Source: a virus | Direction: 5' to 3' (one strand) | Virus record (IMG/VR): IMGVR_UViG_3300018083_000058 | Coordinates: 1 to 42,721 of that record | DNA length: 42,721 nt | Shown: one piece after another, positions 7,490-42,721 of the stretch | Layout of the letters: each line of letters begins with the position of its first letter | Position numbering within the stretch: the first letter of the stretch is position 1 | Position numbers and translations under genes: made by a program | The notes under the pieces: generated by a model | Seen by the model: the letters and a program-made list of their open reading frames with translations, nothing else | Databases searched by the model: none | Told to the model about the DNA's origin: nothing

Positions 7490-7492
7490 CTT

Positions 7493-7753: not shown

Positions 7754-7760
7754 GTAAGTT

Positions 7761-8165: not shown

Positions 8166-8167
8166 CG

Positions 8168-9136: not shown

Positions 9137-9311
9137 TCCAGGTGGACTCAGGCGGCGCTGCCGGTGTTACCTGCAGCGCGTCCCAGCACTCGGTGCCGGG
9201 GTTCCACATCATGGGCGTCTTACAGGTGATGCAGTGGTTAGGCACGCTCAGGGAGGCGAAGGCCGGCGCGTGTCCGAACACTTTGCAGCCGAGTTCCTTG
9301 AGAAACTTCAT
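9126..9311 (-). CDS. Small Cys-containing hypothetical protein, 61 aa
   Basis: The start (MKFLKELGCKVFGHAPAF) leads to a NHCITCKTPMMWN knuckle and a later Cys, forming a short potential zinc site with the N-terminal Cys/His. It overlaps its upstream neighbour as ATGA. The layout resembles the 'CKxxGHxW...CxxC' small phage proteins, but I cannot identify it further. Confidence 0.6.
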   Translation of the reverse strand: MKFLKELGCKVFGHAPAFASLSVPNHCITCKTPMMWNPGTECWDALQVTPAAPPESTWNDY

Positions 9312-9508
9312 TTCTTTTTCCCTTGCGAGCGGGCATAGTCCATCGCCGCCTTCTGATGCATTTCGAGCAGGCTGAAGTCGGTCTTCGACATCGTGCCGTG
9401 GCTCGGGTTGTAGATGTCCACTTCGAGACGCGGTTTCATCACGCCGAGCGGGTCGATGGCTTGCGGCGTGGGATCCGAGTTACGGCAGCCGGGGCAGTGT
9501 TCGCTCAT
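9308..9508 (-). CDS. Small hypothetical protein with CPGC motif, 66 aa
   Basis: The first gene of the minus-strand cassette, starting at the ATG at 9508 with a GGAAG ribosome binding site. It has MSEHCPGCRNSD at the N-terminus (a CxxC pair), a Pro-rich middle and a basic helical tail (KAAMDYARSQGKKK). An in-frame start at 9616 would sit on the control palindrome and was rejected. Family unknown. Confidence 0.6.
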   Translation of the reverse strand: MSEHCPGCRNSDPTPQAIDPLGVMKPRLEVDIYNPSHGTMSKTDFSLLEMHQKAAMDYARSQGKKK

Positions 9509-9742
9509 AAAACGCTTCCGTGGATGGAGCTGCGGGTCTGATAAAGCTAAGGCTTTGCTCTCCCCTGGCTTCACCGCGCCCCATCCATTCTGAGCGTACC
9601 CGTTTCTTTTGCGCAAAACAAGACCTTCGTGTTACGCTCGGGTTGTCGCTTCACCTCGACGTCGAGGGCCGCGGTAGCTGTCGCCAACTGCTGCCACGGT
9701 CCTCATCCCGTTTCAAAACGGAAGGTGATGACGAGGTGAAAG
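9509..9742. promoter_or_regulatory. Divergent control region with three palindromes
   Basis: This 234-base gap separates the leftward cassette from the rightward structural operon. It carries the palindrome TTTTGCGCAAAA (9607-9618, identical to 6223-6234), a second perfect palindrome CCTCGACGTCGAGG (9654-9667), and a short hairpin CCGTTTCAAAACGG (9708-9721). Rightward, TTGCGC (9609-9614) and TACGCT (9633-9638) are 18 bases apart. On the minus strand a TACGCT also follows the palindrome, so the layout is roughly symmetric. This looks like a repressor-controlled divergent promoter; the regulator is not identified. Confidence 0.55.
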
Positions 9743-12053: not shown

Positions 12054-14030
12054 GTGCCGCGTCCGAACAAACCCCACCAACCCCAGCCCGCCGTGCCGCT
12101 CACGATGGAGCAGATGGCGCTCCAGATCGGTTCCTACAACCGCACCAAATTCATTTACAACGAGCAACTGATCTGGGAAGCCAACCCAGGCATGCAGGAG
12201 CAGATTTTCTATTGGTCGAGCCCGGACGGCGTCGTCTTTTACGACCCGGTCACGCTCGCGCCGCAGGCTCCGGACAAGCGCTACATCTGCGATGAGATTC
12301 TCGCAGGCGGGCCGCGCGGCGGCGGCAAAACGAGCGCCGGGATTGCCTGGGCCGCGCTCTACGTCCACAACCCGAAGTACGTGGGCACGCTCCTGCGCCT
12401 GAGTAACGAGGCGATGAAAGAGACGATCGAAAAAGCGTGGGCGATCTACCGATTGATGGGGGCCGTGAAGAAGGGCAACCCGGTCTCGTTCCTGTTTCCC
12501 ACGGGGGCGATGATTTACACCGGCTATCTCAAGGACGAAGCCTCGTTCGAGCAATATCGCGGCCATGAGTATCATAGGGTGGTCATCGAGGAAGCCGAGC
12601 AGATCAAAAGCGAGGCTCTCTATGCCGCAATCCTGTCGTCGAATCGCACCACGGTGCCGGGGTTGCGCCCGCAGATCCTGCTGACGGCGAATCCGGACGG
12701 GCCCGGCGCGGCCTGGCTGAAAGCCCGGTTTGTGAAAGTGCGGCGCTCCTCTAACGGCGAGTTATTTCCCTACGGTACGCCGATGTACGACCCGCATAGC
12801 AGGCGGTGCAAGATCTACTTACACGGGCCGCTCAAGGATAATCCGCAATTACTCGCCCAGGATCCGCATTATGCCGACCGCCTGAATGATCCCTCGCACC
12901 CGGAGTCCCGGCGCAAGGCGTGGATCGACGGCGACTGGGACATCAGCGCGGGCATGTTCTATCCGTCGTTCCGGCCGCGCGCGATCTCTTCAGAGCTCCA
13001 GGATTTTCCCGAGGCGTTTCACGTCATCCCCAGTTACACGATCCCGGGCTGGTGCCATCGCTGGCTGTCGGTCGACTGGGGCCACCAGCACCATTCCGCC
13101 GTTTACTGGTATGCGCTCGCGCCGGACAAACGCATCCATGTCGAAGACGAATTAGTGGTGGCTGGTTACGGGGCCGACGAGCTCGGCGCCGAGATCGCGC
13201 GGCGCTCGCTTCCCAAGCTCGAGCGGATGAAACAGCCGCGGCTGCGCTGTTACCTGAGCCCGGACGCTTTTCAGGTTCGCGACAAAGACCACATGATCTC
13301 GGATCAGATCGCGTACGGCGTCCAGCGCATTCTGGGCCCGGGAAGCTCGCTGATCATGGAGTTCACGCCGCAGGAACTGGCGGTGTCGAAGAGTGACCCG
13401 CAGGCGGCGATGAAGATGCGCGAGGACCGCCTCGCGACGGGCGAGATCGAGGGATCGTCGATCTGGTTCACGCGCGCCAACAACTCGCGCGAGGCCGGCT
13501 GGGAGTACCTGCGTGGGCTATTCCGCTACCAGCCGCTGCGGCGCAAGGCCGAGCCCGATCACGACTACGCCGACTCCATCCTCAAGAACAAGGGCATCAT
13601 CGCCTACCAGAAATATATGGCGATGTTCGCCGAGGAGCACAACGAGGTTCTGCCCCGCATCCGCTTCCACGATAAGTGCCAGATCTTAATTGAAACCATT
13701 CCCAAGCTGATCTCGGACTACCCCACCAACCCCGAAGACGTCAAGAAGTTCGATAGCTCCGAGACGACGATCGGCGACGACCCCGCCGACTCGCTGCGGT
13801 ACGGCTGCATGGGCTTCAAAGATTATGAATCGAAGGTGCCCCGGGAGGTGTATATCGAGGAGGAGATCGCGCGGATTGCCAACTCAAACCCGCAAGACCA
13901 AGACTTCAATATGAAGATCCTGATCGCCAGGATGGCCCAGGAGCGTTACGATAAGCAAAACAATGCGAGCGAATCTTGTATTTTGATTCGTGACGCTATG
14001 CTAGTCCGGAAAGGCCAGATCATCACATGA
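12054..14030 (+). CDS. terL: Terminase large subunit, 658 aa
   Basis: This is the ATP-driven DNA packaging motor. Walker A is GGPRGGGKT (residues 85-93, K92). The Walker B and catalytic glutamate are in HEYHRVVIEE (171-180), and the coupling motif is LLTANP (209-214). The C-terminal nuclease half begins near SVDWG (D341), the first metal-binding acid of an RNase H-like fold. Length is at the long end of the family's usual 450-650. The GTG start is followed by a Pro-rich head; the ATG at 12105 is an alternative start. The neighbouring portal gene confirms context. Confidence 0.95.
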   Translation: MPRPNKPHQPQPAVPLTMEQMALQIGSYNRTKFIYNEQLIWEANPGMQEQIFYWSSPDGVVFYDPVTLAPQAPDKRYICDEILAGGPRGGGKTSAGIAWAALYVHNPKYVGTLLRLSNEAMKETIEKAWAIYRLMGAVKKGNPVSFLFPTGAMIYTGYLKDEASFEQYRGHEYHRVVIEEAEQIKSEALYAAILSSNRTTVPGLRPQILLTANPDGPGAAWLKARFVKVRRSSNGELFPYGTPMYDPHSRRCKIYLHGPLKDNPQLLAQDPHYADRLNDPSHPESRRKAWIDGDWDISAGMFYPSFRPRAISSELQDFPEAFHVIPSYTIPGWCHRWLSVDWGHQHHSAVYWYALAPDKRIHVEDELVVAGYGADELGAEIARRSLPKLERMKQPRLRCYLSPDAFQVRDKDHMISDQIAYGVQRILGPGSSLIMEFTPQELAVSKSDPQAAMKMREDRLATGEIEGSSIWFTRANNSREAGWEYLRGLFRYQPLRRKAEPDHDYADSILKNKGIIAYQKYMAMFAEEHNEVLPRIRFHDKCQILIETIPKLISDYPTNPEDVKKFDSSETTIGDDPADSLRYGCMGFKDYESKVPREVYIEEEIARIANSNPQDQDFNMKILIARMAQERYDKQNNASESCILIRDAMLVRKGQIIT

Positions 14031-14392
14031 GCCCATCAATGGACGAAGAGTTAGGAGCGCCGCCGACCTCCCTCGAGGCCCCGCCCGCCCCGCCTACACC
14101 GCCGCGATCGACGGCGGCCGGCACCGCACCCAAGCTCGGCATGACGTCGATCTCGCCCGAATCGGTCAACTACACCACCGCCGCCGAGCGGTGCGAAACC
14201 TGCGAGCACTTCGATGAAGAGCAGATGTACTGCAACCTGAACAAATTCGACGCCGAGCCCGAAGGCCACTGCGATAAGTTCGAACTGCTCGGTTCCGCCG
14301 CTGGCGGCGGCGGCGAGGAGATTCCGGACGAGGAGATGCCCTTCGAGGAAGAGACCGAGCTCCCCGAAGAAGAAGCCGAAGAAGAGTACTAA
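14027..14392 (+). CDS. Small acidic protein with 4-Cys HiPIP-like motif, 121 aa
   Basis: After a Pro/Ser-rich head, residues 50-88 carry CETCEHF, a Cys at C69, then GHCDKFE (C56, C59, C69, C82). This CxxCxxF...C...GxCxxF arrangement recurs in small phage proteins and may bind iron-sulfur or zinc. The tail is almost all Glu/Asp. The head contains PPTSLEAPP, a motif repeated in the giant protein at 35849. It overlaps terL by four bases and precedes a coiled-coil gene. Confidence 0.6.
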   Translation: MSPSMDEELGAPPTSLEAPPAPPTPPRSTAAGTAPKLGMTSISPESVNYTTAAERCETCEHFDEEQMYCNLNKFDAEPEGHCDKFELLGSAAGGGGEEIPDEEMPFEEETELPEEEAEEEY

Positions 14393-24887: not shown

Positions 24888-27800
24888 ATGCCAGGAGAAG
24901 TTTATTACGTCGATACGCTCACCAGAACCCTCGAGGGGAAGCTCGGCGAGCGCCTCTCTGTCCTCGATGTATCGCCCACGGCGGGCAAGGGCACGCTCGA
25001 CGAGGCACCGGTATTCCTAAAGGCGTACAACTCCAAAATCACCAAAGGCGGCGGCGCGATCCATGTGCCCGGCACGGTGGGAGCCGGTTATCGTCTCTCT
25101 GTGCCGCTGGTCCTCAACGGCACTGTGGCGATCGAATTTGTGGGCGAGGGCCGCGCGTCGAAGATCTTCCGCGGAGCCGCCATGCCTGCGGGTAAGGGCG
25201 TGTTCGATTTCACTGGTGCCAAGAACATCACCTTCCGCAAGCTCCTCTTTGACGGCAGCGTCACCACCTCGACCAAGCTCGATTACTCCGCTTTCGGGAG
25301 TGACCCGGCCCATCCTTCGCTCACCCTCAACTCGATGTTCTGGCTGCGCGGTGCCGAGAACATCACCTTCGAGGATTGCGACTTCGAACACACAGGCGGC
25401 TACTCCCATTACCTCGACGCCCGCTTCTCCCGAGTGAAAGGCGTCCGGTTCATCAACTGCCGGTGGACGAACAACCGCCCGCACACGTTCGGCACGGGTG
25501 CCGACCTCGACTACGGGAGCGCCACCGGAGGCATCCTCTACCAGAACCAGGGCACGGGGGCGAGCCGGGTGGAGGATCTGACGGTGCGCGGCTGCAAGTT
25601 CGCGCGCGGCACCGGGCGAGGCGTCTGGGGACACGGCTACGGCCTGGACACGCTGCACGCCAGGATTCACATCGACCACAACAGCTTCGAGGACTACGGG
25701 CTCAACGGCATCCTGTTCGGCAACACGATCGGCGGAAGCGCGATCGGCAACAGCTTCCGGCGGATTGGCTATATCTGCCCGGACGACACTGCCCCGAGCG
25801 TGCCGAAGTGGCACCCGGGCAATAAGCCCGCCGCGATCGGAGGCTATGGCGTCACCAAGCTGGTCCCTTACACCGGCAATGATTTCGTCTCGATCAACGG
25901 CGCGGCGATCAACGCTGACGGTTATTGCTACGGCGCGATCTCCGGCAACGCCATTCGCGTTCCACGCGCGGGGGAGCCGGAATATACCGAGGATTTGATC
26001 GCCTCCTCCGGCGCCGGCCAGGGAATCATTCTCGCGAACGGGTCCGATCGCGAGGGCGCTTCGGGCGTCACGATCACCGGCAACAGTTGCGACAACCTGA
26101 GCGGCACGGCGATCGGTCTCTATTCTGCGCGGCGCTGCTACGCCTCAGGGAACCTCATCGTCGTTGTCACCACTACTCCGGTGGGCGCTCCTATCGTGAT
26201 CGGGGGCCTCGGTGCCGGGTCCAATCAGAACGCCACCGATAACCTCGTCACCGAAAACATGATTCACTATTCGCCTGCGACCAAACAGGCGGCGATCGTG
26301 GAAGACGACCAGTTCCGGGCGTTCACGCCCACGGACGCAAATAGCGTCGTCAAAAACCGCATCATTGGCAACGAGTGGGTCTTTGAGTTTAAGCGCGCCC
26401 CGCTATCGAATAGCAACACGGGCATCCATTTCACAACGAACACCTCGACCGACACCCAGAGCAGGCACGGCATCCAGCGCGAGGGCCAAGCGTCCGACTC
26501 AAGTTCGGCGCTGCGCGTCTATGTGCAGGACGGCGGCGCGTTCGGCTATCTGCACATGCAGCTACAGGCGTACCGTGCCATTGGAGCCCGCGGGCCATTG
26601 TTGAACGTGTCCGAGTCCGGTCCCGGCATTGTGGACGATGAGGGCCAGCCCGAAGTCCGAGACGGGGTGATCACCACCGGGCCGTACGTGAACTCGCCCT
26701 ACGGCAACGCCATGCTCACCGGCATGGTTCACGCTACCGGATACATGGCGTTCTCCGATGCCACATTCTGGGATGGCCGAGCCGACCTGTTACCCGGCCC
26801 GCCTGAAGCGGAAGGCTGGGCGCTCCTGCGCTGGGACCACTTACTCAACCGCTGGCGGCAATCGGTGGAAGGCGGCGGCGCGGCGGGCCCGCGCATATGG
26901 ACAGACTTCGCCGCTGGTGCCGGTACGGCGGGGAATCCGGCCGGGACAAACGGGCAAGTGCAGTTCAACGAGAACGGGGCGTTCGGCGCTTCCCCCACCT
27001 TCACTTTCACGGGCGGCCCCAACCCGAAAGTGAATGTCACGACCACGCAATACTATCCCGCGATCGAAGTCTACAACGGCTATGTTCAATCCGGGGAGGG
27101 AGTCGGCTTCAACATGATGGCCGAGCCGTGGCCAGCAGACGCGGGCAAGGTGCGGTTATATGCCGGGATGGATGGGCAGATGTATATCTCGTCGAATGAA
27201 GGGGCGTATGTCCCCTTCAGCGCCGGGACGCCCGCTGGCTCGGACAGTCAGGTTCAGTTCAACAAAGGTGGAGTGTTTGGGGCCTCCGGAAACTTCGTCT
27301 GGGATGAGGCCGGTCAGGAGATCGCCATCCAGACGAAGATCAATACGGTTGGCTTGACGGTATTCAACGGATTCATTCAAGCCGCGCAGGGCTATGGCCT
27401 CACCATGACGGTCGAGCCTCCGGTCTCGGGAGACAACCAGGTGCGGATCTACGCGGGCGTCGACGGGACAATCTTCAAGTCGTCTGATACGCAGGCGTAC
27501 GGTCCCTTCGGGAATCCCGCTGGATCAGATAGCCAGATCCAGTTCAACAAAGAAGGGAATTTCGGCGCGAGCGGCAACCTCGTCTGGGACGAGCTCGGCA
27601 AAGAGATTGCTATTCAGACGAATCCCAACACGGTTGGCCTGACGGTGTTCAACGGCTTCATTCAGGCGGCGCAGGGTTACGGCTACACCTTGATTGACGG
27701 CTCCACCGCGCAGCCTGCCAAATCAGAGGTGGGCCAAGTGCGGATGTACGCCGACACCAACGGCTGGATGTACATCTCGACGAACGGGCAGGACTACGGT

Positions 27801-30362
27801 CCCATCGTGAATGGGCCGGCCGGTAATGACACCTGGATACAGTACAACAAAGACGGCGTGTTCTGGGCCTCAGAACACTTCATCTACAACGAGACGATCC
27901 AGACGATGACGGTCGACGGCGGGGTGGCTCTCGAGACGCTTACGTTCACCCAGCTTACGGCCTCAGCGGGACCGCCACCGCAACCGCCTCGCGCGCCTAC
28001 CGGCAAGGTGCGGCTCTACGCCGACACCAACGGGCTGATGTACATCTCGACGAGCGGCTCGGCCTATGGACCTTTTTCGCTCCACCCGGCCGGCGCAGAC
28101 GGCGAGGTCCAGTTCAACGTCAAGGGCGCGTTCGGCGCTTCCGAGTTCTTCTACTGGGACAATCGCCCGGATAAGCTGACCCTGTCGGTGACGTGTGTGG
28201 CGGGCCACGCCGCTATCTCGACTTCGGGCGGCTGGATACAATCCGAGGGCGGGTTTCTGACTAACAACATAGAACCTACGGCCATCCAGGCACCCGTGGG
28301 CGGGGTACACGGGGCGATCGTCAACGCCAGTAAGTATATTTCGGTGACGCAGACACCGAGCCTTGCGCCCTTGGAGGATGACAGCCTGATCGGGAAGGCT
28401 TTCCTGTGGGCCAGTTCCGTCGAAATCTCCGGCGTCCCGGCCCACTATGCCGCTTTGAGTACGTTCGTGGGGAGCACTTCGGTACTTTGCGGTCTCGCGG
28501 TGGGAACCCTGATAGCCGCCGATCGTGTGATCGGGTACAAGGGGATAGAGTTCGTTCAACAGTCGGTCGCGCCGCCAGTCTCCACTGATGGCCGGGTGCG
28601 GCTCTACGCGAAAGACGATGGGCAACTCTGGATATCGACAAACGGAGCCGCGTATGGGCCGATATCGCTCACTGCGGCAGGCACCAGCAGGCAGATCCAG
28701 TTCAACATGAACGGAGCATTTGCCGCGACTGCCAACCTCGTCTGGGATGAAGGCGGCATACTTGCCATGAACGGCTATCTCCAGACCCAGGCCGTCAACA
28801 ACGCGGTCCAATGGGTGATGTACCGCACGTTCGACCCGGCCCATGTCTATTACATGGGCATCGACGCGGGGGAAAACTGGTTCCTGATTGATGCCTCTCG
28901 CGGCGGCTATCAATCGCTGCTTGTTACCCCAGTGCCGTTTACGGCTGGGCCCCCGATAGTTTACAAGCCCGAGGAAGTGATCGTGGCTACTTGCGGTTGG
29001 TTCCGCGGCTCTGGGGGCCTGGGCTTCATGCAGTTGGGCGCGGAGCCGGGTAAATCTATTCCTGGCCAAGTGCGGATCTACGCGAACACAAACGGCGCGC
29101 TCTATATTTCAACGAACGGTGCCGCATATGGGCCATTCGGGGGCGGGGGCACCACTTCTCCTGGCGGCCCTACCACTGCCGTGCAGTACAACAACGCTGG
29201 GGCATTCGGCGGGACGCAGGACTTGGTATGGACAAGCTCTGCAAACAACCTCTCTATCGGGGGAGGCACTTCTACCGATACCCCTGCCCGGCTCCAGACC
29301 AACTCGACGGGTCAGGTCAGAAACCCCGCCACTGGCGCTCTGGGCCCGAATAACATTGAAGGCGATACGCAGTGGATGATGCACCGTCCCTGGATCTACA
29401 TCTGGTATCTGGGAATCCGTACCGACGGGAAGTGGTTTATCCGCGATCCCATGCACGCAAACGCAGGGGCTGGCTTCCCTCACGGCCCAGATGTTTTGAC
29501 GGTTAGCGGCGGCGACTGGACCGGGGCAGGATCAGTCGTCTACACGCCTGGGTGGTTCCAGTCCATTCAAGGCTTCCTCGCCACTGGCACGGCCTACAGC
29601 GCGCTCGACGCCAGGAGCGGTGGGGCCCTTGTTCAGACTCTTTCCTTTGCTCGGGTGAATACGGGCGTCACCGCGGCCCCTCCGGTATCTGGTTCCTCTG
29701 GCAACGGGGAAGTAAAGCTCTATGCCAACACGGACGGCCAGTTGTATATCTCGACCAACGGGGCTGCGTGGGGACCGTTCGGCGGCGGGGGCAGCGGCAC
29801 ACCGGGCGGATCGAACACGCAGATTCAGTTCAACAAGGCCGGAGTCTTCGGCGGCGACGGCGACTTTACCTTCAGCCCAGGAGCTACCCCGACCGATCCC
29901 GCAATTCTGGACTTCTGGGGCTATATGAAGTTCAGTTTGTACGCCGCGCACACATTCCAGCTTGGTTCGAAATACGTCCCTGGTCAGAGTTTCCCCACCT
30001 ATATCCCTGATTCCTTCCAGTTCCAGATCGAGGATCTTACGTACAACAACAAATGTCTCCAGATCGTGGGGGCCTCTTCCGGACCTTCAATCCTCGTGTA
30101 CACGCAGGGCTACTTTGAAAGCTCCGGCGGCTTCAACTCGCAGCAGGCCACGTACAACACGTTTCGCTCGACCGGCGGCGGCGGGATCTCGGTGGCCTAT
30201 GTCCGAGCTACTTACTGCACCCATATCGGGACAAGCAACGGCCAACCTGGGATGCTTTGGCCGGATGCCGTATCGAACGGGTGTATGTATTACGACACCG
30301 GGACCAAGACGATAAAAGCCCTCATCGACAATGTCTGGAGACAGGTTTACACAATCGGTTAG
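24888..30362 (+). CDS. Giant tail fibre/spike protein with beta-helix and repeated modules, 1824 aa
   Basis: Residues about 60-470 have the pectate-lyase-like parallel beta-helix pattern: strings such as ITFRKLLFDG, ITFEDCDFEHTG, VRFINCRWTNN and IHIDHNSFEDYG, each a coil with turns. Such domains often carry depolymerase or receptor activity. From about residue 685 to the end come eight repeat modules, each opening with QFNxxGxFG. The first seven close with a VRxYAxTNGxxYISTNGxAYGPF unit. These QFN modules are common in phage fibres. The C-terminus has a YYDTGTKTIKAL end typical of fibre tips. Modules 5-7 carry extra inserted segments. The catalytic residues of a depolymerase are not evident. 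Confidence 0.85.
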   Translation: MPGEVYYVDTLTRTLEGKLGERLSVLDVSPTAGKGTLDEAPVFLKAYNSKITKGGGAIHVPGTVGAGYRLSVPLVLNGTVAIEFVGEGRASKIFRGAAMPAGKGVFDFTGAKNITFRKLLFDGSVTTSTKLDYSAFGSDPAHPSLTLNSMFWLRGAENITFEDCDFEHTGGYSHYLDARFSRVKGVRFINCRWTNNRPHTFGTGADLDYGSATGGILYQNQGTGASRVEDLTVRGCKFARGTGRGVWGHGYGLDTLHARIHIDHNSFEDYGLNGILFGNTIGGSAIGNSFRRIGYICPDDTAPSVPKWHPGNKPAAIGGYGVTKLVPYTGNDFVSINGAAINADGYCYGAISGNAIRVPRAGEPEYTEDLIASSGAGQGIILANGSDREGASGVTITGNSCDNLSGTAIGLYSARRCYASGNLIVVVTTTPVGAPIVIGGLGAGSNQNATDNLVTENMIHYSPATKQAAIVEDDQFRAFTPTDANSVVKNRIIGNEWVFEFKRAPLSNSNTGIHFTTNTSTDTQSRHGIQREGQASDSSSALRVYVQDGGAFGYLHMQLQAYRAIGARGPLLNVSESGPGIVDDEGQPEVRDGVITTGPYVNSPYGNAMLTGMVHATGYMAFSDATFWDGRADLLPGPPEAEGWALLRWDHLLNRWRQSVEGGGAAGPRIWTDFAAGAGTAGNPAGTNGQVQFNENGAFGASPTFTFTGGPNPKVNVTTTQYYPAIEVYNGYVQSGEGVGFNMMAEPWPADAGKVRLYAGMDGQMYISSNEGAYVPFSAGTPAGSDSQVQFNKGGVFGASGNFVWDEAGQEIAIQTKINTVGLTVFNGFIQAAQGYGLTMTVEPPVSGDNQVRIYAGVDGTIFKSSDTQAYGPFGNPAGSDSQIQFNKEGNFGASGNLVWDELGKEIAIQTNPNTVGLTVFNGFIQAAQGYGYTLIDGSTAQPAKSEVGQVRMYADTNGWMYISTNGQDYGPIVNGPAGNDTWIQYNKDGVFWASEHFIYNETIQTMTVDGGVALETLTFTQLTASAGPPPQPPRAPTGKVRLYADTNGLMYISTSGSAYGPFSLHPAGADGEVQFNVKGAFGASEFFYWDNRPDKLTLSVTCVAGHAAISTSGGWIQSEGGFLTNNIEPTAIQAPVGGVHGAIVNASKYISVTQTPSLAPLEDDSLIGKAFLWASSVEISGVPAHYAALSTFVGSTSVLCGLAVGTLIAADRVIGYKGIEFVQQSVAPPVSTDGRVRLYAKDDGQLWISTNGAAYGPISLTAAGTSRQIQFNMNGAFAATANLVWDEGGILAMNGYLQTQAVNNAVQWVMYRTFDPAHVYYMGIDAGENWFLIDASRGGYQSLLVTPVPFTAGPPIVYKPEEVIVATCGWFRGSGGLGFMQLGAEPGKSIPGQVRIYANTNGALYISTNGAAYGPFGGGGTTSPGGPTTAVQYNNAGAFGGTQDLVWTSSANNLSIGGGTSTDTPARLQTNSTGQVRNPATGALGPNNIEGDTQWMMHRPWIYIWYLGIRTDGKWFIRDPMHANAGAGFPHGPDVLTVSGGDWTGAGSVVYTPGWFQSIQGFLATGTAYSALDARSGGALVQTLSFARVNTGVTAAPPVSGSSGNGEVKLYANTDGQLYISTNGAAWGPFGGGGSGTPGGSNTQIQFNKAGVFGGDGDFTFSPGATPTDPAILDFWGYMKFSLYAAHTFQLGSKYVPGQSFPTYIPDSFQFQIEDLTYNNKCLQIVGASSGPSILVYTQGYFESSGGFNSQQATYNTFRSTGGGGISVAYVRATYCTHIGTSNGQPGMLWPDAVSNGCMYYDTGTKTIKALIDNVWRQVYTIG
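26940..29860 (+). repeat. Array of eight fibre modules (QFN repeats)
   Basis: The conserved CAG-TTC/TAC-AAC (QFN/QYN) codons start near 26961, 27255, 27540, 27840, 28110, 28698, 29184 and 29826. Spacing is close to 290 bases for the first five, then 490-640. The longer intervals hold different inserted sequences, pointing to module shuffling or duplication. Confidence 0.75.
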
Positions 30363-33244: not shown

Positions 33245-34375
33245 ATGCCAAGTTACTGGGAAAACGATCTTCCGCCTGCAGCGGGCGCTGCGCCAGCGGC
33301 ACCTAAGCCTATGGGGGCTGCACCGGCTCCGATGGGCCAGCCTCAACAGCCGCGGCGTCCGATGGGACGCGCGCAAGGCCAGCAACCGGGAGGCGCTCCC
33401 GGCGGTCAGGGCCGATGGTGGCAGAATCCGGGTTCCGCAGTCCGTCCTCCGATAGCGGCTGCGGCGCCGGGCGGCGCTCCTCCGGCAGCTACTTCTCCTC
33501 CGGCTGGTGGAGCGCCACCGGCAGCGGCTCCTCCCGCGCCTGGAGCTCCTCAACCGTGGTCGATGGCCAGCCAAGCCAACCGATTCGCGCCACCGCCAGC
33601 CGCAGCGGCACCGGCTCCCCCGCCTGCAGCCGCACCGCCCCCAGCCGCTGCGCCACCACCAGCGCAGGGAACTTCTTTGCAAGCCGCTCCTCCCGGAGCC
33701 GAACAGGCAGCCCAGAAATCTTTCCAAATGTATGGGGATGCTTATCCGTCTCGGGAAAATGATCCAAGAGGCCAGGATCCCAGATCGGACGAGGCGCGGG
33801 CGGCGGAACAACAGCAGTACGACCGGAGCCGCATGGAGTACAGTGTCGACCGCCTGCGCGATGCGGGGGGCGTTCGGGGACCGAATGGGCAGCCGCTTCC
33901 TGGCCGGGGCGGCGAGCGCCGCGCGTGGGACGAGAGGCCCGGCGGTCCACAGGCTTCGAGCCCATATGACAGGAGCAGTTATTATGAACCCGATCGCCGC
34001 AGCCGGGCATTTGGACCGGCACCGCCCACGGGTGTGGCCTCGTACGGGGTGGGCCCGGTCGGCGGTGGCGAAGAGCCTCCTCTCGCAGGACCGGAAGGCG
34101 GCGGCGGCGAGACTGCCGTTCGGTCGATCGAGCCCGGCGAAGGCGGCGGCCCCCGCTGGGAGCAGGCAATACAGGGCGGGCTGGCTCCAATGGGCGGGCC
34201 TCCGAAGCCTCCTCTACAACCCGAAGGCACAAGCGTACGGCGTCTCGAGGGAGGCGGCGGCGGGCGTGAGCAAATGATGCGGCAGATTCAGATGCAGAAC
34301 ATGCGCGGTCGCGGGCCGATGATGGGCCGCCGGCCGATGCCAATGGGACGAGGACGAGGACCAGCCAGCTACTAA
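33245..34375 (+). CDS. Pro/Ala/Gly-rich low-complexity protein, 376 aa
   Basis: The first seven residues are MPSYWEN, matching MPNYWED in the next gene. The body is low complexity (Pro/Ala stretches, then Gln/Arg and Gly-rich parts, RRPMPMGRGRGPASY end) and likely disordered. A linker or ejection-associated protein is possible. Antisense and shifted open frames here are composition artefacts. Confidence 0.6.
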   Translation: MPSYWENDLPPAAGAAPAAPKPMGAAPAPMGQPQQPRRPMGRAQGQQPGGAPGGQGRWWQNPGSAVRPPIAAAAPGGAPPAATSPPAGGAPPAAAPPAPGAPQPWSMASQANRFAPPPAAAAPAPPPAAAPPPAAAPPPAQGTSLQAAPPGAEQAAQKSFQMYGDAYPSRENDPRGQDPRSDEARAAEQQQYDRSRMEYSVDRLRDAGGVRGPNGQPLPGRGGERRAWDERPGGPQASSPYDRSSYYEPDRRSRAFGPAPPTGVASYGVGPVGGGEEPPLAGPEGGGGETAVRSIEPGEGGGPRWEQAIQGGLAPMGGPPKPPLQPEGTSVRRLEGGGGGREQMMRQIQMQNMRGRGPMMGRRPMPMGRGRGPASY

Positions 34376-34378
34376 GCC

Positions 34379-35848
34379 ATGCCGAACTACTGGGAAGACG
34401 ACCCCACAGATCCGTTCTCTCTATCGAGGCGATATGCTCCGGCTTCCCCGGCTGCTCCGGTCACGAGTCAGTTTGCCAAGTATCAACCGGACGCGCCGAT
34501 GCCTGATACGGGCTGGGGCTCACCGCCGGAAATGGCCATGCCATCCGGTATCCCCAAACTGCCCCGGTCGATGTCCAAGTACAAGCAGGACGACTGGATC
34601 AATCCAGGGCAGGATCCGTTTTACGAGACCTGGGAGAGCGACTGGAACTCGGCGGTAGCCAGGAAGGATGCCGCGCTCAAGGGCAAGCCCAGGATCGGCG
34701 ACAAGCAATACGACCTTCCGATGTGGCAGAAGGCCCTGATGACCGGCGCGAATGCGTTTGCCGGGTACATCAATGCCGGACGCCGCACCCACGTCGATCC
34801 GATCGACCAGGCGACCTTGCGCCGCCGCCCGAAATACGAAGAGGCGATGGACCTCTGGGAGACCCAAGGCAAGGCGATCGACCAGGAATTGAACAACCTG
34901 CAGAGCAAATACAGCCTGCGGCGGCAGAAGCATCAGGACACGATCGCCGACCGTGCGGCGAGCCTACAGGAACGCTCGGCCAGACGCCTGGAAGAGCAGG
35001 CTGACCGGCAGGGCGACCTCATATCGTCGCAGATCGACGAGAACCAAGCCCAAGGAGAGCACAACCGGGCCCAGGCAGCGTACCAGCGGGAACTGGCGAA
35101 GAAGGCGGCCACTAGGCAGGAGTACATCCCCGCCGGTCGCGGCCAGATGTTCAAGACGAGCACCGAGGAATTTCTTGGAGATCCTTACAAGTCGCCGGAA
35201 GAGATCAAGCAGGAGGCCGAAGACAAGCGCGCCGATGAAGCTGAATCGATGGGCTTTGAACCCGGCTCTCTCGAGTACTGGAACTACGTGAAGAAGGCCG
35301 GGATCTGGCGGCCCCGCGCGCCCGGCACCGGCCTCCACGGCGCACTGACCGCGAACCAGGAGCAACTCCAAGCCGAACGGGTAGCCAAGCGAATGGCTGC
35401 CATGAGTGATGAAGAGCGCACCAATCCCCAGACTGGGGAGCCCGGCCTCAACGAGATCCGGGAGCGGTTCGGCGTACTACTCAAAGCCGCTTACGCGCAG
35501 GCCAAGAAGACCAACAAGCCGCCGGTCATTCCGCCAGCCGCTGTCGAACGGTTCAACGCCGCCACCGACAAGCTGATTGAAAACTTGAAGACCAAGCTAG
35601 ACTTGGGGCAACTCGGCGGCGGCCGGGCCGAGTACGACGCGCGGGTACAGGGCCTGAAGAAGTGGACCCCGCCGAAGCCGGAAGCGGCTGGAGCACCTAC
35701 CCCGGCTGCGGCCCCCGCACCGGCTGCGGCTCCTGCGGCACCTACTACCCCAACCACCGGACAGCAGAAGGGCACGTTCGGGGGCTGGGGAGACTGGGAT
35801 ACGCCGAAGCCGCCGCGCAGGACTCTCGAATCATTTGGCGGGCGTTAA
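34379..35848 (+). CDS. Ejection-type internal virion protein 2, 489 aa
   Basis: Opens with MPNYWEDDPTD (shared with the preceding gene). A helical, charged middle (LNNLQSKYSLRRQKHQDTIA; SLQERSARRLEEQADRQGD) has coiled-coil character, and the tail is Pro/Ala-rich ending in GWGDWDTPKPPRRTLESF. No catalytic motif visible. Its stop is followed immediately by the ATG of the giant gene, so the block is cotranscribed. Confidence 0.6.
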   Translation: MPNYWEDDPTDPFSLSRRYAPASPAAPVTSQFAKYQPDAPMPDTGWGSPPEMAMPSGIPKLPRSMSKYKQDDWINPGQDPFYETWESDWNSAVARKDAALKGKPRIGDKQYDLPMWQKALMTGANAFAGYINAGRRTHVDPIDQATLRRRPKYEEAMDLWETQGKAIDQELNNLQSKYSLRRQKHQDTIADRAASLQERSARRLEEQADRQGDLISSQIDENQAQGEHNRAQAAYQRELAKKAATRQEYIPAGRGQMFKTSTEEFLGDPYKSPEEIKQEAEDKRADEAESMGFEPGSLEYWNYVKKAGIWRPRAPGTGLHGALTANQEQLQAERVAKRMAAMSDEERTNPQTGEPGLNEIRERFGVLLKAAYAQAKKTNKPPVIPPAAVERFNAATDKLIENLKTKLDLGQLGGGRAEYDARVQGLKKWTPPKPEAAGAPTPAAAPAPAAAPAAPTTPTTGQQKGTFGGWGDWDTPKPPRRTLESFGGR

Positions 35849-38800
35849 ATGGCCAGAAAGTTCGACCTCGACGGGGCACGCCGGGAGGGTTATACCGATA
35901 CCCAGATTGCCGATTACCTTGCTGGCTCGCAGGGTTTCGATATCGCCGGGGCCCGCAAGGAAGGCTACACCGACCAGGAGATAATCGGGCACCTCAACAA
36001 GCCCGAGGGAGCGGAACTGCCCCAGGTAGGGCAGACGCCCGCGATGGCTCCGTCCTCGATTGGACCGATCAGCACTCCTCCACCCGCTGGCTGGACGACG
36101 ATGCAGGAGACGCCTTGGTCGACTCCGTACGATATAAAGGTTCCCGGCGCCGAGCGCACCGGCCTCCCCGGCGTGCAGGGCGCGGCGATCCCACCTACGC
36201 TGGGCGGCCCGCCTCTCCGGCCTCGTCCTTTGCCACCGTCCCAGCAAACCTTCGGAGCGCCGCTTCGATACGAGGAGCCACCGATCAGGGGCACTCACCG
36301 CGCCGAGAAGTACTACCAACAGCCGGAGGTAAGACCGGACTGGGGGCCGCAGCCGGCTGACCGTGGACTCTTAGAAAGCGGGGGAGGCGCGTGGGCCGAG
36401 GGTTGGCGTGGACTGCAGGGCACGATCGGCTCAGGAGCCGAGGCAGTAGGAGTCGTTGGCCGGGAGGCATTCCCACAGAGTCGACCGATGCAATCGGTGT
36501 TCGACACCGTTTATGACGTTGGCCGGTACATCCAGCCGGATAATCAGGAGTTCACAGAGCGGCGCACCGCCCAACAGGTCTGGGAAGACCCGAGCTTATA
36601 CGGGGCGGCCCAGTGGGGAATCGAGTCGCTGGCGCAGGGAGCGCCGAGCATCATCACCAGTGCTACGGCGAGCGCCATTCATCCGCTGCTCGGCAAGGTT
36701 GTCACCTACCTGATGAGCGCCGGGGAGATCAAGCAAAACCTTGAGCAACAGGGCCACGGCGAAGTGGACGCTTCAAAAGCGGCGCTTATGTTCGGGTTCC
36801 CGTCTTCGTGGCTGGAAAACTTCGAGCCGATGCGGATCGTGTCTGCTCTCAAGAAGGTTCCGGTCAAGCAAACCCTGAAGGAGATTCTGGAGCAGACCGC
36901 CAAGAAGATGAGCCTCATGAAGCGCACCGGGGCAGCCGGGCTTGAGGGGCTGTATGAAGGCGCGACCGAGGGAGGCCAGACCGCTATCTCGGAATTCGCC
37001 AACTACTTCCTGGGCGGCGAGGTTCCGAACGCCACCGAACTGTTCTGGAAGATCTTTAACGATACCGCCGCAGGCATGGTCCCCGGCTGGGTCGGCGGCG
37101 GCATACAGCAGAGAGCCGAGGCCAAGCACTCGGCTGAGGCCCGCGAGTTCATGGAGGAGCTCGAACGGAACGATCCGCTCGGCAAGTACATGGGCGATCG
37201 CAACGCCAGGATGGCAGGCACTGGCCCGGGCAATGTAACTTCCCCAGAAGGCCCGAATCCGCCGATCTCGCCGGTCCCTGGTGTTTCCTTCCAAGGCGAT
37301 CCCACGAGCCTCGTGCCGACCCAGGCCCCGGCCCAGCGCCCGATCGCCGACCCGGTCCAGGTCTACGAGGAGGCCAAGGCATTCGCTTCGAACTTCCCGG
37401 AGCTTGGCGTAAGCTCCCTGGTGAAGAAGTTCAACGTCACGCGCGACGGAGCCCGGCAGATCCTCGATCGCCTCGTCGAGGAAGGCGTCTTCGCTCCCAA
37501 GCCGACCCGGGACGGCGGCACCGTCTTCACCAATCTGGCCCTGCAGGCCGAGCGCGGCGGCAAGGCCGCGGTGGTCAAGCCGAAGACGGACGAGGAGCTC
37601 GAGCAGGAGCTCGTCGCGCAGCGGCAGGTAGTTCCCCAGCAAACCCTCGACAACCTGCGTTCCGCGCTGGAAACACTCCAGAGCCTCACTGGCCAGGAGC
37701 CCGGCTACGCCGACATCGTCGCTCAGGCCCAGGCGGTGATCGACCGCTTCCGCCGCGTGTCTGCAAAGAAGGGCGTCGACGCCGACGCGATCATCAGCGG
37801 GCTCACGGGAGGAGCGCCCCAGGTTCAACAGCCGAAGCCGCCGGCCAAGGCGGCCAAGGCTCCTACACCTCCTACACCGCCGGAGCCACGGGTAACCGCT
37901 GAAGAGCACGCTACTCAATGGGAGCAATCGCAGATCGAACGCGGGCTTGAGAAGGAAAGCCAGCGCGTCTTCGGTAAACCTTTCGGAGATCTCACTCCAC
38001 TCAATCAGTGGATCATTCGAGGGAACGTCCCCGGCGCCGAACAAGAAGCAAAACCCGCTCCGAAAGTGCCCGCCCCCGCGCCACCGGTTGTCCAGCAAGC
38101 GGCTCCTGGCGAGGAGATGGAGCAGCCGCCGCCGGCCCTCGAACGGGACTTGCCGCCGGAAACCGGAGCAGAGAAGCAGGAACCGATCCCGGTCCCAACA
38201 GAAGAGCAGGCCAAGCGCGAGGCGTTCATCCGGGCCCGCTACTACAACAAGCCGGAGAAGTGGTACGAATCCGTGGAGGGCCCAGGCCCGCGCCCGGAGT
38301 GGAACAACGTCGTCGACCACTTTGCCCGCGTGGCGAGCAAGCAGCAGGGCCTCTCGATCCAAGCCATAGCCAAGGAAGAGGTTCTAGCCCATCGCAGAGG
38401 TCTCGCGACAGTCCAACAGAAAGGGGGACCACAGGGACTCGAACAACCGCCGTCAGCATTGGAGCGGGCCCAACCGCCTGCTCCAGCGGCAGTCGCACCG
38501 GAAGACCTCCGGGTCGAAGAGAAGAAGGACGGCAAGACCGTCACCCTCAACTACTACCAGCCCGATGGCACCTATGTCGGTTTTGGCAAGTATATCGGCC
38601 GCTTCAGCCTCATCGTGCAGGTCGAGCCTAAGTTCCGCCGCCTGGGCTACGGGACGCGCATTCACGGGGATATGCAGAAGCGGGGTGTCACCGACTCGAC
38701 CGCCGGAACTCCCGAGGGCAAGGCTCTGCTTGAGAGCCGGGGATGGGTAGAGGGAGAGACTCCTGACCAGTTCAGCCCGCCTGGGTTTAAGGAGAAGGAA

Positions 38801-41800
38801 GAGGAACCGGCCCCGCCGACGTCGCTGGAGGAGCCCAAACCCGCTCCACCGGCTCCACAGGCCACCTTCACCGCCAGGATGGACGCCGCCCAAACCGCCG
38901 ACGAGGGCCGTAAGATTCTCGGCGATGCAACGGACGCCGTTGAGGCTCTGATGCGGGATATCGGCATCCAGCCGATCGTAGGAAACGTCGCGCCAAATTA
39001 CACAGTTGGTATTCACATCCTGAATGACAAGAAGAGAGTCAGGCCCGCCCTAAAGGAGGCCAAGGCTAAGAATCCCGCCAAGGCGAAACAACTCGAAGCA
39101 CTGATCCAGGACGTGCTGCAAGCCTACGGCCCGGGCTGGGAGCGGGTCAAGGACGCCGACTACGCGAGGGAAGACGCGAAGTTTGAGAAGTTCAAGAAGG
39201 ACAAGCCGGTCGAGAAGACCCCGCCCGCGAGTGTGAAGAGGAAGAAGGGAGAACCGGCCAGAGAGGCCGTCGCCCCGTTCACCGGCCAGGACATCAGCAA
39301 AGAGCCAGCTTGGTATCAGAAAGACTTCGCCGAGCCACGGCCGCCGTGGGCCCAGATCGTTGCGCTCACCCAAGAGTCGACTATGAAGGGGCGCACGCTC
39401 CCGCAGATCGTTGACCTGGCGGTCGAGCTTCACCAGCAGAGGCTGGTCGCCGAGCGCGAGAAGTTCCAGGTGGAGCAGCAACGCGGCAAGCCGGTCACCT
39501 ACGAGGATAAGCGGGCCGCTAAGGAGGCCGAGAAGAAAGCCGCCGCCGCCGCCAAGCGGGCTGAGAAGAAGAAGAAGGGCAAGGCCAAGGAGGAAGGTGA
39601 GGATCTCGCACCGATCACGTCCCTTGAGGAGGACGAAGAGAAGTTTGTAGTCAAGTCGGTCGAGGATCTGGAGGCCGAGCGTGAACGCAAAGACAACTCG
39701 CCCGAAGGCATCGTAGGCCGCCTCCCTGGTTTCACGAAGGAGCAAGAGGCCGCGCTGATCGAGGAGCTCCGGGCCGGTGCCACCGTGCGGGATGCGATCG
39801 CCCGCGTGGCGTGGGAAGCCGACAGCTACCAGGATGCGGTCGACCGGGACAAGCGCGATGGCTCACTGGATGCTCCCTACATCAAATCGACGGCGGATCT
39901 GGCCCGTGTCGAGAGGGCTGACGTCGCCGCGCCGGAACCCAAGGCAAAGACCAAGGAGCAGGAGCCGGGCAAGGTCACTTCGCTCGCCAAGCTCATGCCT
40001 AACCTTGTCAACGTCAAGCCGGGCTATGGCACCGCTGCCCTGGATTTTGCCAACGAGATCGACCAAGCCGTCTACGTCGCGGGCGGCGGCAATCCCCTCT
40101 ACCCATACTCGATACCGAATTCGACCCAAAAAGACTTCGTTAAGTTCGCGATGGCACACACCGGCCTGACACAGGAGGAGATCGAGGCCGCCGCCGATCG
40201 CATGAGGATGTTCCTCATGAATACCTCGGAAGGCATCGAGGCCACCGGCAAGGAAGTGGACCGGATGACGGCTCCTAGCTGGAATATCACCTTGGATGAG
40301 GTCAGAGCCGCCAGGAAACCCAAACCGGTGAAGGCGAAAGCCAAGGAGGAGCAGCCGGCCAAGGTCACGCCTCTTGAAAAAGAGGAGGAGGAGGAGGACG
40401 ACGACGAGCGGTACTTCGACGAGGAGGAGGACGAGGATGGCTTCGCCAAGAAGAAGGAGAAGCCACCGCGCAAGCCGGAGATGGAGGCCGCCGTTCTCAA
40501 GGCGATCGGGTCAGGCCGGTTGTCGCAAGATCTCTCCGACATGAAAGAGTTCTCCGGCCAAAACCGGAATGACTACTACAACGCCATTGAAGCCCTCGCC
40601 GACGACGGCGTCATCGAGTTGGACGTGTTCGCCAAAGGCGGTCCTACGTGGACCCCGGTGAAGCAGGCCGGGCAGCAGGAGGCCAAGCAGGAACCCAAGC
40701 AGGCCCCGGCGCGGGATCCCAAGGTCGAGGCCGGGATCCTGGGGTTGCTGGGGACCAAAGGTATACCGGCCTTTGACCTCAGGCGCTCCATGAAGTGGAA
40801 CGAGAATCCGGAAGCGTCTCAGAACGCCCTGGACGCTCTCGTGGAGGCCGGTGTCATCAAGTTCAACAAGAAGACCAAGACCTACTTCCCGGCAGAGAAG
40901 CCGCGCCCCAAGGGGCCCAAGGCCCGGCCCAAAGCCTCGATCCTCCAGGATGAGGAGCCCGGCAGGCCCACCTCGCCCGAAGAGCGGGACTACGACGACA
41001 TCCAGCGCGACATTGACGCTGAAGAAGACCGCTTGGTGGCCGGCGGGATGTCGGAGGATCAACTAAGCCGCCTCTATAATCCGGAGAACAGGAAGCAGGA
41101 GGACTTCCCTCCAGGCTGGCAACCAATGCCGGACAAACTGGCGGCTCTCTATCGCGAGAGAGATGCCGCCCTGGAAGCCGAAGAGCGTAAGGGGCCAGTC
41201 GATGAACAGAAGCGTTTAGAGGACGCGGTCCTCAAGGCAGTCGGCACCGGCATTCTCGACGACAAACTGGACGAGCACGAAGAGTACCTCAAAGACCCGG
41301 ATGCGTTCTATGAAGCGGTATCCAGGCTGATCGGCACCGGCAGACTTGATACTCGCGTAAAGGGCGACCACCTTTACTTCTCCCCGCTGGAACCGGGCAC
41401 CGCTCGCCACGACATAAACAAACGCGAGTTGGAAGCCGCGGTTTCGAAGATGGAGAGGATCACCCGGGATACCAAGATCCTCATCCTGAATGCTGGTTTA
41501 CAGGACGCCCGCGCCGCTGTGAAGCGGGCTACCAAGGGAGCCGGGGCTCCGGTGGACCTGGGCAAGGTGACTTCGCCGGAGAAGAAGTCGGCCTTCGAGA
41601 AGGCCAAGGACGCCCTGGCCGGGTTCGTGGGCAAGAAGAAGACCGACGTTCGCCAGGCCGGCCTGATCGACCCGGCCAAGCATCCGGGTGGGGCAGCTTA
41701 TGCCAAGAGCGGCAATAGCTGGATGATCGAGCACGCGAAGATCCGGTTCCCCAAGCGCGGCAATACCGGCGTGGTGTACATGAACCATGACGCCATGCGG

Positions 41801-42721
41801 ATCCTCATGTGGATCTCTGGGCAGAAGCTAGGCGGCGCGAACTTTGCCGCATCTGACTACGACATTATCCTCGGTGACCTCAAAGAACACCTCGGCCTCG
41901 ACCTGAGCCCGGAAGCAAAGGCCGTACTGGACAAGCTGCACGCCGACATCACCGAGTTCCGGAAGCAGAACCCGGAGGGGATGGACGTTGTGCTGGCCGA
42001 CAAGAAGCGGTCGCTTCTTGCCGACATCCAGGGGAAGAAGCTCGACACCGTCAAGTCGGTGGCCTACGAGGAGAGGCTCCATGCCGTCCAGCGGAAGGCT
42101 CCGCTCAAGGAAGCCGTCATCAAAGCCCTGATGAGGACGGCAGTTTTCAAGAAGGCCGAGCTCCATCTGATGAACGTTCGTCTCTATGGAGACGACGTCC
42201 TGGATAATTTTGACGAGGTTACTGCCAAGGTTCTGGCCGGCCAGGAGATGGGGCTTACCCTGGATGAGCAGATTGAAGTAGCGCAGGCGTACCGGGCGGC
42301 CCTGATCGCCGAGCACGGCGATGACGTCATCGTCCTGTTCCGGTACATGAAGCCTGGAAAGGTGAAGGAGGCATTTCGTGGCACAACAACGACCAAGGAA
42401 AGTAGTGGGCGCACCGGGGTTGAGCCGCCGGGCGGTCGAGAACTTCAACGCGGCCCAACTGGCGGCCGAGAGGGCCCGGCTCCTGGGGAAGGACGAGAAC
42501 GAGGCGTTCGCGAAGGCGCTGAAGGCGCAGTGGGAGAAGAGCGCGGAGAAGAAGGAGGACTAGACCTCAAGGCTTCACGGGCAAATCCAGCGACCGACAT
42601 CGCGGATAAGTCGTTTGTAAAGGACACAGCGCGCACACTCCTGGGCGAATGGTCGGCAGGCCGCATCAAGGTCAAGGACATCGCCGCGAAGATCATCAAG
42701 GAGCATGGGGCCAAGGCCCGC
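35849..42721 (+). CDS. Giant polyvalent ejection protein, at least 2291 aa (3' end outside window)
   Basis: One open frame runs 2291 codons to the window end. Residues 5-24 and 30-49 are a doubled FDxxGARxEGYTDxxI motif. Residues about 170-430 are hydrophobic and Gly-rich with an EGLYEGATEGGQTAISEF segment, as in membrane-active internal virion proteins. An FtsK-gamma-like winged helix lies at 501-565. A GNAT-like half domain lies at about 885-972, with R930-x2-G933-x-G935. Three more winged-helix-like modules lie at 1543-1600, 1623-1682 and 1786-1849, and a conserved-looking region at 1925-2165. Linkers are Lys/Glu/Pro-rich and hold a recurrent T-S-[P/L]-E motif. Co-injected polyvalent proteins with this modular style are known from phages. 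Enzymatic activity is not shown: only motif A of GNAT is clear. Confidence 0.75.
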   Translation, partial: MARKFDLDGARREGYTDTQIADYLAGSQGFDIAGARKEGYTDQEIIGHLNKPEGAELPQVGQTPAMAPSSIGPISTPPPAGWTTMQETPWSTPYDIKVPGAERTGLPGVQGAAIPPTLGGPPLRPRPLPPSQQTFGAPLRYEEPPIRGTHRAEKYYQQPEVRPDWGPQPADRGLLESGGGAWAEGWRGLQGTIGSGAEAVGVVGREAFPQSRPMQSVFDTVYDVGRYIQPDNQEFTERRTAQQVWEDPSLYGAAQWGIESLAQGAPSIITSATASAIHPLLGKVVTYLMSAGEIKQNLEQQGHGEVDASKAALMFGFPSSWLENFEPMRIVSALKKVPVKQTLKEILEQTAKKMSLMKRTGAAGLEGLYEGATEGGQTAISEFANYFLGGEVPNATELFWKIFNDTAAGMVPGWVGGGIQQRAEAKHSAEAREFMEELERNDPLGKYMGDRNARMAGTGPGNVTSPEGPNPPISPVPGVSFQGDPTSLVPTQAPAQRPIADPVQVYEEAKAFASNFPELGVSSLVKKFNVTRDGARQILDRLVEEGVFAPKPTRDGGTVFTNLALQAERGGKAAVVKPKTDEELEQELVAQRQVVPQQTLDNLRSALETLQSLTGQEPGYADIVAQAQAVIDRFRRVSAKKGVDADAIISGLTGGAPQVQQPKPPAKAAKAPTPPTPPEPRVTAEEHATQWEQSQIERGLEKESQRVFGKPFGDLTPLNQWIIRGNVPGAEQEAKPAPKVPAPAPPVVQQAAPGEEMEQPPPALERDLPPETGAEKQEPIPVPTEEQAKREAFIRARYYNKPEKWYESVEGPGPRPEWNNVVDHFARVASKQQGLSIQAIAKEEVLAHRRGLATVQQKGGPQGLEQPPSALERAQPPAPAAVAPEDLRVEEKKDGKTVTLNYYQPDGTYVGFGKYIGRFSLIVQVEPKFRRLGYGTRIHGDMQKRGVTDSTAGTPEGKALLESRGWVEGETPDQFSPPGFKEKEEEPAPPTSLEEPKPAPPAPQATFTARMDAAQTADEGRKILGDATDAVEALMRDIGIQPIVGNVAPNYTVGIHILNDKKRVRPALKEAKAKNPAKAKQLEALIQDVLQAYGPGWERVKDADYAREDAKFEKFKKDKPVEKTPPASVKRKKGEPAREAVAPFTGQDISKEPAWYQKDFAEPRPPWAQIVALTQESTMKGRTLPQIVDLAVELHQQRLVAEREKFQVEQQRGKPVTYEDKRAAKEAEKKAAAAAKRAEKKKKGKAKEEGEDLAPITSLEEDEEKFVVKSVEDLEAERERKDNSPEGIVGRLPGFTKEQEAALIEELRAGATVRDAIARVAWEADSYQDAVDRDKRDGSLDAPYIKSTADLARVERADVAAPEPKAKTKEQEPGKVTSLAKLMPNLVNVKPGYGTAALDFANEIDQAVYVAGGGNPLYPYSIPNSTQKDFVKFAMAHTGLTQEEIEAAADRMRMFLMNTSEGIEATGKEVDRMTAPSWNITLDEVRAARKPKPVKAKAKEEQPAKVTPLEKEEEEEDDDERYFDEEEDEDGFAKKKEKPPRKPEMEAAVLKAIGSGRLSQDLSDMKEFSGQNRNDYYNAIEALADDGVIELDVFAKGGPTWTPVKQAGQQEAKQEPKQAPARDPKVEAGILGLLGTKGIPAFDLRRSMKWNENPEASQNALDALVEAGVIKFNKKTKTYFPAEKPRPKGPKARPKASILQDEEPGRPTSPEERDYDDIQRDIDAEEDRLVAGGMSEDQLSRLYNPENRKQEDFPPGWQPMPDKLAALYRERDAALEAEERKGPVDEQKRLEDAVLKAVGTGILDDKLDEHEEYLKDPDAFYEAVSRLIGTGRLDTRVKGDHLYFSPLEPGTARHDINKRELEAAVSKMERITRDTKILILNAGLQDARAAVKRATKGAGAPVDLGKVTSPEKKSAFEKAKDALAGFVGKKKTDVRQAGLIDPAKHPGGAAYAKSGNSWMIEHAKIRFPKRGNTGVVYMNHDAMRILMWISGQKLGGANFAASDYDIILGDLKEHLGLDLSPEAKAVLDKLHADITEFRKQNPEGMDVVLADKKRSLLADIQGKKLDTVKSVAYEERLHAVQRKAPLKEAVIKALMRTAVFKKAELHLMNVRLYGDDVLDNFDEVTAKVLAGQEMGLTLDEQIEVAQAYRAALIAEHGDDVIVLFRYMKPGKVKEAFRGTTTTKESSGRTGVEPPGGRELQRGPTGGREGPAPGEGRERGVREGAEGAVGEERGEEGGLDLKASRANPATDIADKSFVKDTARTLLGEWSAGRIKVKDIAAKIIKEHGAKAR
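42378..42563 (+). CDS. Nested small gene in an alternate frame, 61 aa
   Basis: Starting at a GTG with AAGGAGG six bases upstream, this frame (+1 relative to the giant gene) encodes a basic helical protein (AVENFNAAQLAAERARLLGK, then AFAKALKAQWEKSAEKKED). Third codon positions here are strongly G/C from about codon 11, whereas the giant frame over the same bases is Gly/Glu/Arg-rich with many A/T third positions. That suggests this frame is the selected one in this stretch. It could be a true overprinted gene, a frameshifted region, or an artefact of GC bias. Confidence 0.5.
   Translation: MAQQRPRKVVGAPGLSRRAVENFNAAQLAAERARLLGKDENEAFAKALKAQWEKSAEKKED

Follow-up and report, generated by a model that had tools for sequence, protein, structure and literature searches.

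Polyvalent proteins, described by Iyer et al. (2017; PMC5512222), are very large phage proteins of the virion gene region that join many unlike domains in one chain; ddrB-ParB, the DarB-type methylase-helicase, RadC and the FtsK-type winged helix-turn-helix (wHTH) are among their named domains, and autoproteolysis has been proposed for them. In phage P1, DarB has a capsid-targeting signal at its N-terminus, and its first 30 residues are enough to take a reporter into the capsid (PMC9024508). Injected proteins of the P22 type are described as forming a conduit for DNA (PMC8402733). Polyvalent proteins are presumed to be carried in the virus head and to enter the host together with the DNA. Here we analyse a giant gene that closes the virion block of an uncultivated tailed phage; its available part probably encodes at least the N-terminal half of a polyvalent protein.

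The window, the whole stretch of DNA analysed, is 42,721 bases long and is the entire virus record. An ATG at 35849 opens a frame of 2,291 codons on the + strand that runs free of stops through the last base, 42721; at the base composition of the window, chance would give about 2e-26 such frames. Because the record stops at 42721, the gene is cut at its 3' end, and because the window end falls well inside the giants of two relatives onto which it was mapped (G009 and G010), some 1,500-2,000 C-terminal residues are absent from the window. The giant of G001, the nearest relative, is cut in the same way. Changes between the window and G001 are enriched at codon position 3, with 0.32 against 0.19 and 0.18 at the other two positions for residues 4-667 and 0.27 against 0.17 and 0.14 for residues 1861-2291. 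An earlier note on this DNA, made from the letters alone, had claimed a frame of at least 2,291 codons without a stop and a missing 3' end; the former is borne out by the chance expectation and the coding pattern, the latter by the end of the record and the greater length of complete homologs. The features of the frame and its upstream neighbour are as follows:

34379-35848, + strand: upstream protein of 489 residues, directly 5' of the giant and kept beside it in eight relatives
35849-42721, + strand: giant open reading frame of 2,291 codons, 3' end lost at the record end; homologs have 3,078-4,172 residues
35861-35983, + strand: doubled motif FDxxGARxEGYTDxxI, residues 5-20 and 30-45, a candidate capsid-targeting tag
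36335-37174, + strand: hydrophobic region, residues 163-442, conserved in relatives, a candidate ejection or membrane region
37340-37561, + strand: FtsK-gamma-like winged helix, residues 498-571, found in all six core relatives
38492-38803, + strand: GNAT-like segment, residues 882-985, in the window only; another segment replaces it in G001
38864-39196, + strand: module of unassigned function, residues 1006-1116, common to G001 (67% over 983-1226) and G004 (55%)
39989-40243, + strand: module of unassigned function, residues about 1381-1465, common to G001, G004 and G010
40475-40657, + strand: winged helix 1, residues 1543-1603, shared with G001; G006 has a related one
40718-40891, + strand: winged helix 2, residues 1624-1681, not found in G001
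41204-41401, + strand: winged helix 3, residues about 1786-1851, absent from G001
41717-42388, + strand: EExxH domain, residues 1957-2180, with EExxHxxQR (E2074, E2075, H2078) and E2123-V-TAK
42551-42721, + strand: first part of a short helical module, residues 2235-2291, recurring in relatives and cut by the record end

A tblastn search of 50,697 phage records with the whole giant protein gave no match, nor did the portal-position gene, the capsid-like gene or the C-terminus of the relatives' giants find one among these 50,697 phages. The portal-position gene at 15189 has 12 matching loci among viral contigs, and the records behind these loci were searched with the giant protein as query. Giant homologs are present in G001, G003, G004, G006, G009 and G010, the six core relatives, and also in the covered portions of G007 and G008; the core set comprises five complete giant genes, encoding 3,546, 4,040, 4,172, 3,078 and 3,701 residues, and the cut gene of G001. 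Three distant relatives were reached through single regions, L061 and L066 through the EExxH domain and L076 through the C-terminus. Both L061 and L066 combine an N-terminal repeat, the hydrophobic region and the EExxH domain; the complete L061 frame (3461-9547, about 2,030 residues), whose C-terminus does not resemble the one shared by the core relatives, is a candidate minimal form of the giant. The EExxH domain and the giant C-terminus had no match in the genomes of 84,980 bacterial and archaeal species, and hence no host was found.

Described polyvalent genes lie near portal or terminase genes and late virion genes, and the same holds here: the terminase gene (12054) and the capsid-like gene (18921) are late genes on the same strand 5' of the giant, with the portal-position gene (15189) between them, and the relatives' giants have the same neighbours. 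The eight records from the portal-gene loci that have a giant homolog (G001, G003, G004 and G006-G010) all contain the 489-residue upstream protein as well. It starts much like the protein of 33245-34375 (MPNYWEDD and MPSYWEND, respectively), and the two possibly share an N-terminal signal. The earlier note had the giant follow two ejection-type proteins, a role that is putative for this pair. Elsewhere in the window, the 1,824-residue protein of 24888-30362 has a beta-helix match and direct repeats within 26930-29866, mostly 270-300 bases apart, and is likely a repeat-built tail fibre.

The doubled FDxxGARxEGYTDxxI noted earlier is exact at residues 5 and 30. Each relative examined starts with a short motif in two or three copies, the motif itself varying: the FDxxGARxEGYTD type occurs in five (the window, G001, G004, G006 and G009), and the other repeats are NPFAKYGG (G003), LGFKP (G010), PPGFVP in three copies (L061) and LDPLP (L066). 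No other protein of the same phage, in the window or in the covered parts of the relatives, was found to share the N-terminal motif. By analogy with P1 DarB, the repeat is a plausible capsid-targeting tag. The hydrophobic EGxxEG region was also read correctly; EGLYEGATEGG lies there, and the region is conserved among relatives.

Whole-protein searches of the window giant against Pfam, PHROGs and NCBIfam returned no family over the curated cut-off. A profile of residues 498-571, built from six homologs, has the FtsK gamma structures 2j5o and 2ve8 as its top matches (E=0.004), and the copy of G010, whose sequence is not in the profile, is still found at 5.9e-19; the window residues themselves give a sub-cut-off Pfam FtsK_gamma match (E=0.015) and a match to phrog_13700 (E=0.0027). 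The FtsK-gamma-like winged helix of the earlier note is confirmed by this profile and by its presence in every core relative. So are the three further winged helices, for which the AlphaFold model has the order alpha-alpha-alpha-beta-beta at a pLDDT of about 65-87 and the listed Foldseek matches are for the most part to winged-helix proteins, the best at E=0.001; the three are also mutually similar (shuffle z 4.3-11.2).

The GNAT claim is tentative. Motif A is present as the string R930-R-L-G-Y-G935, and the only two Pfam matches of residues 882-985 are both to GNAT families, FR47 (E=0.083) and Acetyltransf_7 (E=0.18), below cut-off. No homolog of the segment was found in the collections searched, viral contigs included, and no PDB sequence matched it; its model is of low confidence after three strands, with no GNAT among the listed fold matches. 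The motif string is present and the GNAT domain is a candidate; in profile searches of the kind that the earlier note proposed as a check, FtsK gamma is recovered and GNAT stays below threshold.

For the EExxH domain, no match came from Pfam or the PDB sequences and no significant one from Foldseek searches of fold libraries, viral folds included. Of the core relatives only G006 lacks it, and G003, G004 and G010 each have it twice; the residues E, E, H and Q and the downstream E-x-T-A-K are invariant across 11 copies; its model, built from nine sequences, has a pLDDT of 82.6. A zincin was considered because of the EExxH...E pattern and of the way in which strands and helices follow one another; this succession, together with the placement of the motifs, may correspond to a zincin in which the first His is replaced by Glu. 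Zincins are recognized by HExxH with a downstream Glu and by their fold; here the downstream Glu is present, the motif is EExxH in all 11 copies, HExxH occurs nowhere in the window's chain, and the polyvalent metallopeptidase PF18818 is absent from the records of eight relatives. With sequence, Pfam and fold searches empty, the zincin assignment is retained as a hypothesis only. A zincin metallopeptidase is the commonest polyvalent domain (about 36%) and is not required; the giant has none that can be recognized.

Domains of known families are found in the homologs. Pfam identifies ddrB-ParB (PF18763, E=1.5e-25) in the giant of G003, DUF7178 in those of G003, G004, G009 and G010, and SNF2 and Helicase_C, both over cut-off, in that of G006, which also carries a DarB-like antirestriction methylase/SNF2 module (phrog_10089, 1517 bits); the L076 homolog has ddrB-ParB, RadC and two DprA winged helices (DprA_WH). 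At the level of the family, several unlike biochemical activities are therefore combined in one chain: ParB, DUF7178 and EExxH in G003; methylase, SNF2 and wHTH in G006; ParB, RadC and DprA_WH in L076. The window chain alone has four winged helices and one unclassified domain. The relatives' C-terminal region, about 1,000 residues long and 45-69% identical, is present in all five complete core giants and accounts for roughly one quarter to one third of their length; it has no Pfam match, and the idea, formed by eye, that it is a known polyvalent C-terminal domain was dropped. Also dropped was the name "portal protein" of phrog_21 for a ParB-like segment of G004, because the match is confined to the C-terminal part of the profile. 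In L054 (G004), a module at residues 1700-1909 of P0003 matches phrog_3162, of unknown function (E=7e-13), and looks by eye like a HipA-type kinase. The giants of L053, L054 and L057 (G003, G004 and G010) each contain four to six QxxLF peptides, against 0.4-0.6 expected after shuffling; these resemble the bacterial beta-clamp-binding motif, and the window and G001 have none.

The polyvalent class is supported because homologs at the same locus carry ddrB-ParB and the DarB-like methylase-SNF2 module and L076 carries RadC; with these (PF18763, phrog_10089, RadC) and the FtsK-type wHTH of the window, the family has domains in common with described polyvalent proteins. The assignment rests on the homologs more than on the window's own domains. 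Of the earlier reading, a co-injected polyvalent protein, the polyvalent part is kept mainly through the homologs and its GNAT argument is tentative; we infer packaging, injection and processing of the giant. Against the polyvalent reading, Pfam scans of the window and relatives found no LPD domain, PF18818 is lacking in the eight relatives' records, the tblastn search of 50,697 phage records gave no relative, and the window's own 2,291 residues hold no established enzyme.

Among the core relatives the hydrophobic region and the FtsK-gamma-like winged helix are constant, as is the C-terminus in the five complete genes, and the middle varies; the window has, and G001 lacks, the second and third winged helices and a stretch at about residues 1230-1370. 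In the same phages the capsid-like gene is 92-97% identical and the terminase 82-90%, whereas for the giant, G001 aside, matches are limited to patches of 23-55%, indicating that it is an exchangeable cassette. Sister phages with near-identical capsids and very different giant contents thus present a polyvalent protein in the midst of module exchange, and since contents differ while capsids hardly do, the locus is a natural store of modules for early infection and against host defence. Three of its conserved parts are unclassified, namely the EExxH domain, the 1,000-residue C-terminus and the repeated N-terminal tag.

The modules of the window giant are separated by a recurring peptide, the copies of which are:

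37223-37249, + strand: linker GPGNVTSPE, residues 459-467
38804-38830, + strand: linker of EPAPPTSLE type, around residue 990
39602-39628, + strand: linker of DLAPITSLE type, around residue 1256
39962-39988, + strand: linker of EPGKVTSLA type, around residue 1376
40352-40378, + strand: linker of QPAKVTPLE type, a looser copy, around residue 1506
40955-40981, + strand: linker EPGRPTSPE, around residue 1707
41555-41581, + strand: linker DLGKVTSPE, around residue 1907

This PGxVTSPE-like peptide, a motif picked after the fact on looking at the sequence, has six copies in the window where shuffling predicts 0.03, the looser copy at 1506 being a seventh; it may serve as a flexible joint, an exchange point or a cleavage site. 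The copies use differing codons and all lie in predicted disorder (simple residue-propensity profile). In a general test for repeated nine-residue peptides of whatever sequence, with local shuffles as the control, G001, G006 and G009 are above chance, the last with a different peptide, and the window is above it in the number of repeated seeds (13 against 0-3); G003, G004 and G010 are not above chance. A small protein encoded after the terminase (14027-14392) contains PPTSLEAPPAPP, similar to the linker peptide of the giant.

The number of these linkers, their disorder and their position between modules, the excess over shuffles in three relatives and the autoproteolysis proposed for polyvalent proteins (PMC5512222) would suit a polyprotein that is cleaved at the repeated linkers by a protease, possibly its own EExxH domain, to free effectors before or after entry. 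We consider this very unlikely, as three relatives have no repeated linker beyond chance, the EExxH domain has neither detectable metallopeptidase similarity nor HExxH, and the linker motif was chosen post hoc. A broader version, in which the giant would be a cassette polyprotein with linkers serving as both exchange joints and cut sites and the EExxH domain as a new metal-dependent processing enzyme, is speculative and improbable.

The unusual size of the frame and the metagenomic origin of the contig might instead suggest several shorter genes fused by frameshift or misassembly, but in five relatives, each assembled independently, the gene is one complete frame of 3,078-4,172 residues without an internal stop, and every compared stretch shows the coding pattern, so the chance of such an artefact is negligible and the giant frame is a real gene; the assembly error named in the earlier note as a possible refutation is itself refuted by these separate assemblies. 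A somewhat better case, still an unlikely one, can be made for a chiefly structural ejection protein of the T7 large inner-core or P22 injected type, a DNA conduit with the modules as ancillary parts. The terminal place of the giant in the virion block, its conserved hydrophobic region, the share of the chain taken by the conserved C-terminus and the conduit of P22-type proteins (PMC8402733) are consistent with it; however, the swapped methylase-helicase, ParB and RadC of the homologs would be out of place in a purely structural part, and the middle of the giant is far more variable than virion genes. The structural and polyvalent readings are compatible, and it is the polyvalent one that we favour.

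As a polyvalent protein, the chain would be made late in infection and taken into the capsid by its short N-terminal tag, as for P1 DarB. At ejection it would exit with the DNA, the hydrophobic region helping, and its winged helices may hold it on the phage DNA during cell entry. Within the first minutes the exchanged modules would come into play, in the relatives through DarB-like methylation and translocation against restriction and through ParB- and RadC-type domains, in the window through extra DNA binding and perhaps an acetyltransferase. Long disordered linkers may allow the chain to be threaded out or cut into parts.

The octamer GGGNAGGG (KOPS) is the target of FtsK; the winged helix of the giant is of the same size as FtsK gamma (2j5o, 2ve8), which its family profile finds first, but the giant has no FtsK motor and GGGNAGGG is not enriched in the window (four on the + strand against 7.7 expected). 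In Vibrio phage VPMS1, MS_022 (L070 11608-14490), a hypothetical protein of only 961 residues adjoining the portal gene, has two GYxxEEIxxYL repeats followed by a glycine-rich hydrophobic stretch; the repeats resemble the N-terminal motif of the window with marginal similarity (tblastn E=0.1). The likeness to P1 DarB and DdrB lies in the DarB-like module of G006 and the ddrB-ParB of G003, whereas the window has neither methylase-helicase nor ParB, and its chain begins with a short motif in two copies where DarB has a signal within 30 residues (PMC9024508). Compared with the polyvalent proteins of Iyer et al. (PMC5512222), the giant is likewise very large, built of many unlike domains and encoded in the virion gene region, and its family also has ddrB-ParB, the DarB-type methylase-SNF2, RadC and the FtsK-type wHTH; no PF18818 or LPD was found, and it has the EExxH domain and the linkers, and its relatives the unclassified C-terminus. 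The EExxH domain, the C-terminus, the doubled varying N-terminal motif and the recurring linker peptide are the new points of the family, and on the polyvalent reading the giant is a new member of that class with several unclassified parts.
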